A stretch of DNA of 47,698 nt from Candidatus Gallimonas faecavium (GTDB lineage Bacteria; Bacillota; Clostridia; Christensenellales; Borkfalkiaceae). The DNA lies in contig CAJFMF010000002.1 of NCBI GenBank assembly GCA_904391375.1, forward strand, positions 1 through 47,698, in the 5' to 3' direction. The notes below the pieces were generated by a model that saw only the letters and a program-made list of their open reading frames with translations, was not told the origin of the DNA and did not search any database. Below are positions 26,744-29,458 of this stretch, in pieces. The stretch's first letter is position 1, and every line of letters starts with the position of its first letter. The translations under genes were made by a program, and so were the position numbers.

Positions 26744-27958
26744 TCATCGAACAAGAAATTGTTCAAATTTTGCGGCGTGTTCTATGGGAATGACGGCACG
26801 GATATGCGTTCCGTCTTCTTCATATTGAACGTCGTTTTCCGTGACAAATGCGCGTAGAGCTGCATAGACAGCGGCTTGCGCATAGGGGACAAACAAATCG
26901 GCACGCACAAAACGTCCTTGAAGGGCTTCAAAGATTTTTTCCTTCAGAAAGTCTAACCCGCGGCCATATTTGGCAGAGATGCAGATCGCATCTTTTGGGA
27001 AATGGCGGGGATCCGAAACCGCGTCGCATTTGTTCATGACGACGAGATAGGGCGATGAGAACTTCATTCCGTTCAAGGTAGAGAGGGTGGTCTCGAGCTG
27101 CATTTCAAAATCGCCGCCCGCGTCGCACACTATAAGGGCAAGATCGCAATGCAGGGCGCTTTCCAGCGTTGACTTGAAGGCCTCGATGAGGTGATGCGGC
27201 AAATCGCGCAGAAAGCCGACCGTATCCGTTATGAGAAAGTCCATTCCCTCGATCTCGACCTTGCGTGAAGTCGGATCCAACGTGGCAAAGAGGGCGTCTT
27301 TCACAAAGACATCGGAACCCGTGAGCGCATTGAGCAGCGTTGATTTTCCCGTATTCGTATAGCCGACGAGCGCAACCGTGCGTGCGCCGTCTTTTTTTCT
27401 GCGTTCTACCTGAAGGCCGCGCCGTTGTTCCGTCTTGGACAGCTTGTCCTCCAGCGAGCGAATCCGCATGCGAATATGGCGGCGATCGGTCTCCAACTGG
27501 GTTTCGCCCGGGCCGCGGGTTCCGATTCCGCCCCCGAGACGCGAAAGCGCTTCGCCCTTGCCTTTGAGCCGCGGATAGAGATAGCGAAGCTGTGCGAGTT
27601 CGACCTGCAGTTTTCCTTCGCTTGACTCGGCGCGCAGGGCAAATATATCGAGAATGAGCGTTGTGCGGTCAATGACCTTTTTCCCGTCGAGCGCTTCGGA
27701 GAGATTTACCGTCTGAGAAGGGGAGAGATCGCCGTTAAAGAGAACGGTTACATCGAGCCCGTCCAGCCGATCGCGCAGCTCAGCCACCTTTCCTTCGCCG
27801 AGAAAGGTCGCAGGATTGATTTCGCGGATTTTGGCATACAGCGTTCCGGCATAGGCGGCGCCGGCGCTTTCGATGAGAGCAATCGCCTCCAGCCGAAGTG
27901 CCTCGGCCGTATTCTCCTGAAATACGGGCTGTACGATATAGACATTTTCCGAAGTCAT
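26744..27958 (-). CDS. hflX: GTPase HflX
   Basis: LGGGIGTRGPGETQLETDRR, VALVGYTNTGKSTLLNALTG, DTVGFLRDLPHHLIEAFKSTLE. Confidence 0.97.
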   Translation of the reverse strand: MTSENVYIVQPVFQENTAEALRLEAIALIESAGAAYAGTLYAKIREINPATFLGEGKVAELRDRLDGLDVTVLFNGDLSPSQTVNLSEALDGKKVIDRTTLILDIFALRAESSEGKLQVELAQLRYLYPRLKGKGEALSRLGGGIGTRGPGETQLETDRRHIRMRIRSLEDKLSKTEQRRGLQVERRKKDGARTVALVGYTNTGKSTLLNALTGSDVFVKDALFATLDPTSRKVEIEGMDFLITDTVGFLRDLPHHLIEAFKSTLESALHCDLALIVCDAGGDFEMQLETTLSTLNGMKFSSPYLVVMNKCDAVSDPRHFPKDAICISAKYGRGLDFLKEKIFEALQGRFVRADLFVPYAQAAVYAALRAFVTENDVQYEEDGTHIRAVIPIEHAAKFEQFLVR

Positions 27959-29028
27959 GCGTCGTCCTCCGAATGATGCAGCTTGACGGCATCGGCGACC
28001 GAACGGCGATGGTCTTCCGTAATGGCCGCATAGTGTTTTCGCGTCGTATTGACGTCACGGTGACCTAAAACGTCCGCCACGACATAGATATCGCCCGTCT
28101 CACGATAGAGCGCCGTACCGTAGGTAGAACGAAGCTTGTGCGGTGTTATCTTCTTGAGCGGGGTTACGATTTTCGCATATTTTTTGACAAGATTTTCTAC
28201 GGCACGCACGGAAATTCGTCTGTATTGCAGGGAAAGAAAGAGGGCATGTTCTTCCGGCGGTACCTTTGTATCGTTCTCCTTTTGCGCAAGGTAAGCGCCG
28301 AGAGCGTCTCCGACTTCCTCCGAAAAATAGAGAATCGCCTGGTTTCCGCCTTTGCGCGTCACGACAAAGGAATTGTTGGAAAAATCAATGCTCTCATTGT
28401 TTAATCCGACCAATTCGGAAATACGGATCCCCGTCCCCAAAAAGAGCGTGAGAATGGCACAATCGCGGACTTTGGTCTTTTCATGATAGCCTGCCGCGTG
28501 CGAAGAAAGTCCGTCTCCGTACTCTGCGGTATCCAGCAGGGTAGAGACCTCATCTCCTTCCAGCCGAATGATTTCTTTTTCGTGAAGTTTCGGCGTAGCG
28601 ACTTTCGTCGACTGATTGACTTCGATCAAGCCCTTGTTGAAGAAATATTTGAACATGGAGCGCACCGAAGAGAGCTTGCGAGCCTTGGCGCGTTCGTCGC
28701 AGGAGAGGTGCTTGTCCCCAAACCGATAGTTGGAGAGATAGCTCAGATAAATTTCAAGATCGGTATCGGTAACAGACTCCAGATCCTCCAAAGAAAGCGT
28801 GCCGACTTCCTTCTTCCCGCGGAATTTTTTTCGCACTAAAAAGTCAAAGAAAATCCGCAGATCGTAGCAATAATTGAGCCTTGTTAGAACGCTCGTACGC
28901 GACTCGATCCCACGCAGAAAATCCTCGCAGAACGGGGGAAGCTCATCAAGCAGGCGGTCGATCCGATCCATATTCTTAAGATTGCGCTCGCGGTAATAAT
29001 CTGTACCGTTTTTCGGAACTTTACCCAT
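27955..29028 (-). CDS. Tyrosine-type site-specific recombinase (XerC/D-like)
   Basis: Catalytic set: GTGIRISELVGL (R), TRKGG (K), PHKLRSTYGTAL (HxxR), LGHRDVNTTRKHY (H...Y); start MGKVPKNG at 29028. Confidence 0.9.
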   Translation of the reverse strand: MGKVPKNGTDYYRERNLKNMDRIDRLLDELPPFCEDFLRGIESRTSVLTRLNYCYDLRIFFDFLVRKKFRGKKEVGTLSLEDLESVTDTDLEIYLSYLSNYRFGDKHLSCDERAKARKLSSVRSMFKYFFNKGLIEVNQSTKVATPKLHEKEIIRLEGDEVSTLLDTAEYGDGLSSHAAGYHEKTKVRDCAILTLFLGTGIRISELVGLNNESIDFSNNSFVVTRKGGNQAILYFSEEVGDALGAYLAQKENDTKVPPEEHALFLSLQYRRISVRAVENLVKKYAKIVTPLKKITPHKLRSTYGTALYRETGDIYVVADVLGHRDVNTTRKHYAAITEDHRRSVADAVKLHHSEDDA

Positions 29029-29034
29029 GCTCTC

Positions 29035-29064
29035 ATTATAACATATCAGAGCATTCCATGTCAA
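29035..29064 (-). promoter_or_regulatory. Consensus sigma-A promoter of the recombinase-hflX operon
   Basis: Minus strand TTGACA (29064-29059), 18 nt, TATAAT (29040-29035). Confidence 0.88.
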
Positions 29065-29079
29065 TTTTACGAATAGTTA
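29065..29079 (+). repeat. Repeat copy A TTTTACGAATAGTTA
   Basis: 15-bp repeat adjoining recombinase -35 box; identical to copy C. Confidence 0.85.
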
Positions 29080-29357
29080 TAGGGGGGAAAATTTGAAATT
29101 AGAGCAAAGGAGGCCATCAAAGACGTGTTTTAAGCCGTGGGCATTTTATCGTTGGCATATTTATATAACGGCAGTTCAGCAAGGCGGAGGTGACTGTGTT
29201 GCTGGGGACACTGCGAAAGATAGAAAAACCCGCATGGCAGGGCATTTGAGAAAGTTTGCGGAAGAGGAGGATTGCGCAACAAAGCGGGACGGTCTCAAAG
29301 AGAAATTAGAGGCTTGGGAGGTGAAGAGCTTGGGGGAGAACGTTGGCAGATCTTAAA

Positions 29358-29371
29358 CGAACGGTTGTTTG
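29358..29371. promoter_or_regulatory. Possible LexA box
   Basis: CGAACGGTTGTTTG resembles CGAAC-N4-GTTYG. Confidence 0.4.
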
Positions 29372-29422
29372 AGGCTCTGAGATCGTTTCGGGAGAGAAAA
29401 AATCGTCACAGGGGAACATGGA

Positions 29423-29458
29423 TAACTATTCGCAAAATGCAGCTTTTACGAATAGTTA
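29423..29458. repeat. 36-bp inverted repeat with 6-bp centre (copies B and C)
   Basis: TAACTATTCGCAAAA tgcagc TTTTACGAATAGTTA; arms match 14/15. Confidence 0.85.

Follow-up and report, generated by a model that had tools for sequence, protein, structure and literature searches.

The window analyzed here, a 47,698-nucleotide stretch of a contig of Candidatus Gallimonas faecavium, encodes a 357-aa product with a Phage_integrase domain (3e-30) among housekeeping neighbors (hflX, alpha-amylase, and glycogen phosphorylase). The DNA upstream of its start codon carries three copies of a 15-mer, two in the forward orientation (A and C) and one inverted with a single mismatch (B). Recounting in the window bore out the three copies and the coordinates that an earlier note on this DNA had given them. 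With up to 3 mismatches allowed, the window holds 4 matches compared to a shuffled mean of 0.69, and 4 matches were reached in 0 of 100 shuffles. The whole-genome search proposed in the same note found the repeat to be rare, as copies A, B, and C are its sole occurrences at ≤1 mismatch in the 1.64-Mb assembly (reversed control, 0). Copies B and C together read TAACTATTCGCAAAA-TGCAGC-TTTTACGAATAGTTA, a 36-bp site of two 15-bp arms flanking a nonpalindromic 6-bp core, which matches the general layout of dif/Xer sites (6- to 8-bp core). Its description as a tyrosine-recombinase core site holds, and the arms and the 6-bp core are conserved as a unit across the order. An Rfam search of the window gave no match. 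The features are collected in Table 1.

Table 1. Features of the recombinase locus in the window and, in the last row, a protein family encoded at related loci (positions within each locus)
Feature	Position	Strand	Basis
Single Xer-type tyrosine recombinase, 357 aa, XerS-like but under the XerS cutoff	27955..29028	-	Profile searches, catalytic residues, tree
-10 box TATAAT of recombinase promoter, extended (TGnTATAAT)	29035..29040	-	Sequence; conserved in genus
-35 box TTGACA of recombinase promoter	29059..29064	-	Sequence; conserved in genus
Copy A, lone half-site (one arm) beside the -35 box; probable operator	29065..29079	+	Sequence; genus loci
DNA between half-site A and the B+C site	29080..29422	.	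Unconserved in relatives; no known gene or RNA family
dif-like recombination site (copies B+C)	29423..29458	.	Sequence, terminus position, integrations in relatives
Left arm (copy B, one mismatch)	29423..29437	-	
Core TGCAGC	29438..29443		
Right arm (copy C)	29444..29458	+	
~310-aa family	L126:7292-8281, L140:7555-8598, L147:7548-8513, L156:8951-9889, L157:7558-8493, L151:5355-6314		

Profile searches place the recombinase closest to XerS, which is its best NCBIfam model, but the score of 203 bits misses the equivalog threshold (cutoff, 267); the XerC, XerA, and XerD models score below XerS, each under its own cutoff. The recombinases of relatives score 171 to 191 bits with the XerS model, and of the 299 phylum genomes searched, only 7 had a XerS over the cutoff. 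Among 19 aligned sequences, R202, K226, H297, R300, and Y333 are invariant and H323 nearly so, leaving the R-K-H-R-H-Y set intact. Of 61 genomes of the order, 58 have a relative of the recombinase, which is an ortholog (approximately 46 to 89% identity) except in genome G054, where the match is only a weak paralog. In a maximum likelihood analysis, the family formed a single clade with an SH-aLRT of 99, next to XerS (94) and separate from XerC/D (100). The clade takes in Candidatus Ornithoclostridium (assigned to Christensenellales by NCBI), Lachnospiraceae, and other Clostridia, and by these names the window itself would belong to Christensenellales. The sister relationship to XerS is provisional, as the tree comes from a quick search without bootstrap and contains long branches in XerS. 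Filing the recombinase as XerS was rejected on its score, the tree, and the structure of the site. A search with the XerD model alone found XerD over the cutoff in 0 of 61 genomes, and no second tyrosine recombinase was found in G009 (99% complete). Several genomes also carry 300-aa tyrosine recombinases of other kinds. The FtsK gamma domain was present in all 13 genomes tested.

The promoter of the recombinase gene has an 18-bp spacer between TTGACA and TATAAT, and in the window, as in most loci of the genus (L012 to L041), the extended -10 box ends about 6 nucleotides ahead of the ATG (at 29028 in the window). The mRNA is predicted to be leaderless, probably, because the ATG lies only 6 nucleotides past the -10 box. 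Copy A directly abuts the -35 box, as had been noted earlier. An arm holds this position in 19 of 33 genus loci by a strict pattern and, by eye, in six more with a slightly variant arm (L016, L018, L020, L033, L039, and L041), for a total of about 25. The hexamer adjoining copy A is the -35 box rather than a core, and no second arm follows it. Because of this fixed register with the promoter and the lack of a core and second arm, copy A is probably an operator and not a recombination partner. The suggestion in the earlier note that the enzyme could bind copy A for its own control is taken over in this form, and autoregulation of the recombinase through copy A appears reasonably likely from the layout. 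A relic of a past integration at dif was rejected as an origin of copy A, since the neighboring hexamer is TTGACA and not the core GCTGCA. In the closest relative (G004), a break in the assembly separates half-site A from the site (C31:1-300 and the end of C32; loci L005 and L013).

A DNA search with 451 bp of the window against 40 relatives recovered the B+C site and half-site A, while the DNA from A to B gave no match in the same search; the site is conserved order-wide as a unit and the stretch between is not. In several relatives, half-site A and the site lie well under 150 bp apart. In related genomes, the same arms and a 6-bp core occur upstream of the orthologous recombinase gene in 49 of the 54 loci having upstream DNA (our own count), and the site lies within 2 kb of the gene in 49 of 78 named loci. 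The distance between the two ranges from 8 bp to several kilobases and reaches 54 kb in G026; at some loci the site is 2 to 3 kb or more from the gene, with serS and a gene for a ~310-aa protein, or unrelated genes, intervening. This ~310-aa family, without a Pfam match, lies between site and recombinase in several relatives, sometimes together with serS. The core varies in sequence at constant length, and there is almost no variation in the inner AAA/TTT or in the CG steps of the arms.

Searching for the pattern TKCGYWAAAN6TTTWRCGMA, with the reversed pattern as a control, identified the site in 86 of 101 genomes of the order, once in 82 and twice in 4 of them, while the control gave 0. The 15 genomes without the pattern (approximately 15%) are in part explained by arm variants or contig ends. 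No pattern match was found in family f14 (G037 and G109), where the ortholog of G037 (L044) has no recognizable site nearby. Both ortholog and site are absent from G031 and G054, and G114 also lacks the site; in G031 (95% complete) no tyrosine recombinase whatever was detected. Two matches occur in G100 (the second at C1:1776193), G068 (C43:463), G103 (C3:576 and C19:15302), and G104 (C1:110686 and C3:2202362). The second match in G100 sits midarm, off the terminus, and such second matches could be elements with dif mimics, chance occurrences, or contamination.

The position of the site was compared with the switch in GC skew that marks the terminus. In the single closed contig of G100 (2.56 Mb), the skew is +0.16 at 2.20 to 2.22 Mb, falls over 2.25 to 2.27 Mb, and is -0.19 from 2.27 Mb onward; the site is located at 2,270,631, opposite the origin, and the reverse flip occurs near 0.91 Mb. 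A 695-kb contig of G025 changes from positive to negative skew at 125 kb; over its first 200 kb, the cumulative skew peaks at 126.0 kb, within 0.1 kb of the site (126.09 kb). The site also lies within 2 to 6 kb of the skew switch in G101, G032, G062, and G007, where the stretches were picked around the site and the change of sign is the evidence. In G026, where the gene is remote from the site, the distance to the skew maximum is 13 kb for the site and 67 kb for the gene. Among the named loci that extend at least 3 kb to each side of the site, skew is higher on the left in 41 of 43 (one-sided P value of approximately 1e-10, with related loci not being independent); the same holds for 9 of 17 loci of a comparison set in which no site was found. 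In the window, the main genes are on the plus strand before approximately 25.7 kb and on the minus strand after, and the cumulative skew forms a shallow plateau at 35 to 40 kb, approximately 6 to 10 kb from the site. The skew of the window is compatible with a terminus, though not sharply.

Elements have integrated at the site in two relatives, and in both the recombinase gene lies outside the element. At locus L166 (SVHU01000001.1; 3131-9525), a 6,368-bp element is bounded by 27-bp direct repeats, each comprising the left arm and core plus TTT. Its products are a rolling-circle protein of the G2P type (4.5e-13), an ATPase resembling Zot (7e-4, marginally below the Pfam cutoff), a repressor, and small proteins, a gene set suggestive of an inovirus-like prophage. 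The Zot-like protein had no relative in the phage collection searched. At locus L022 (G043:C2; 257-1306), 24-bp direct repeats of the core and right arm enclose a 1,026-bp element that carries a repressor gene, and the site is uninterrupted in the related genome G001. These integrations resemble the exploitation of dif by integrative elements, which has been reviewed (PMC5357621) and includes a case in Legionella (PMC9765430). A literature search of limited reach gave nothing on an inovirus with dif in Clostridia.

Collectively, the B+C site and the adjacent gene very probably constitute a single-recombinase dif/Xer module for chromosome dimer resolution rather than an invertible or excisable switch, and the site is almost certainly the single dif site of the chromosome. 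Both statements are read from sequence, namely, the anatomy of the site, its single copy, its terminus position, its order-wide conservation, its co-occurrence with the recombinase, the lack of XerD over the cutoff, and the integrations in relatives; catalysis at the site, control by FtsK, and autoregulation we infer. Each of the near-symmetric arms would be bound by one of two identical recombinase protomers. Once homologous recombination has joined sister chromosomes in a dimer, both dif copies would meet at the septum, probably via FtsK, and strand exchange over the 6-bp core would split the dimer into two monomers. Because the core is not palindromic, the site would have a polarity, favoring resolution of directly repeated copies over inversion, and it would be expected to pair with its counterpart on the sister chromosome. 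Copy A would be a one-protomer site at the edge of the promoter, through which the enzyme probably restrains its own expression.

The headline of the earlier note was an invertible or excisable element, in which the recombinase would flip the A-B segment or excise A-C as a phase-variable switch of its own gene. Inverted and direct copies do bracket approximately 340 to 360 bp beside the promoter, and the core-site part of that proposal stands. However, a complete inverted site on each side of the segment would be needed, and one complete site was found in the genome. Copy A is a half-site, the A-B segment has neither conserved length nor conserved sequence in relatives, and approximately 8 of the 33 genus loci have no copy A by the pattern used, while the complete site is kept order-wide as a single copy at the terminus. 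The phase-variable or excisable segment was rejected on these grounds, and such a switch is very improbable.

A tyrosine recombinase adjoining an att-like site, with elements integrated there in two relatives, could also suggest the integrase and attachment site of a mobile element. An att site owned by this integrase was rejected on account of the near-universal single ortholog and the housekeeping neighbors; the recombinase lies outside both integrated elements, and closed G100 displays vertical inheritance and a terminus position, so that a mobile element is hardly credible. That B+C serves mainly as an operator, for the recombinase or another regulator and without recombination, draws on the site lying upstream of the gene at most loci and on the arm at the promoter, but is highly unlikely given the wide range of distances to the gene, the placement of the site nearer the terminus than the gene in G026, and the elements that have integrated at the core.

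Beyond the window, we consider it rather likely that an undescribed single-recombinase Xer clade with a symmetric dif is the dimer-resolution system of Christensenellales and related Clostridia, autoregulated through a promoter half-site and exploited by inovirus-like elements much as XerCD/dif is in Vibrio. Genome-wide dif surveys sought XerCD-type sites, and single-recombinase systems have been described in streptococci and lactococci, some epsilon-proteobacteria, archaea, and (in 2022) Legionellales. Our literature searches, limited in reach, found no published description of a one-enzyme version in gut Clostridia and nothing on XerS in Lachnospiraceae. A one-enzyme system would mark the terminus across an entire order of gut Clostridia, most of them uncultured, and the site offers a ready terminus marker for metagenome assemblies, a near-symmetric substrate as a simple means to ask how one recombinase orders strand exchange, and a predicted integration target of inovirus-like elements in Clostridia. 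Elsewhere in the phylum, families f73 and f110 encode XerS-like recombinases close to the middle of single-contig chromosomes, and just upstream of the recombinase there is a perfect palindrome with a 6-bp center (L285 to L287, L212, L215, L218, L222, and L225 to L230). These are probably further single-recombinase modules, with mixed skew at four of them.

Among known systems, XerCD/dif of Escherichia coli and Bacillus shares the 6-bp core, dyad-symmetric arms, terminus position, FtsK gamma domain, and exploitation by integrative elements, but has two recombinases where one is found here (0 of 61 genomes over the cutoff in the search with the XerD model alone), and the arms are unlike the usual dif. 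XerH/difH of Helicobacter and Campylobacter is likewise a single recombinase with a linked site near the skew maximum (PMC5357621 and PMC2731167); XerH is only a weak sequence match to the window recombinase (PDB search, 1.2e-5). XerS/difSL of streptococci and lactococci also has one recombinase of approximately 356 aa, a linked site, a terminus position, and FtsK (PMC5357621). The 31-bp difSL has unequal arms, TTTCCGAAAA and TTTTCTTGAAA, around a central region given as 11 bp (PMC5357621), whereas the arms here are near-symmetric with TTCG(C/T)AAAA around a 6-bp core and so are not of the difSL type, and the protein, short of the XerS cutoff, falls in a separate clade; as a positive control, L202 yielded a true difSL next to its XerS. 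The dif/XerL system of Legionellales shares an order-wide single recombinase, long uninterrupted symmetric arms, the terminus position, and an integrating mobile element (PMC9765430). Legionella xerL is >400 kb from dif (PMC9765430), whereas gene and site are usually adjacent here, and the phyla differ. By analogy, the module would work like XerS/difSL and the dif/XerL of Legionellales.
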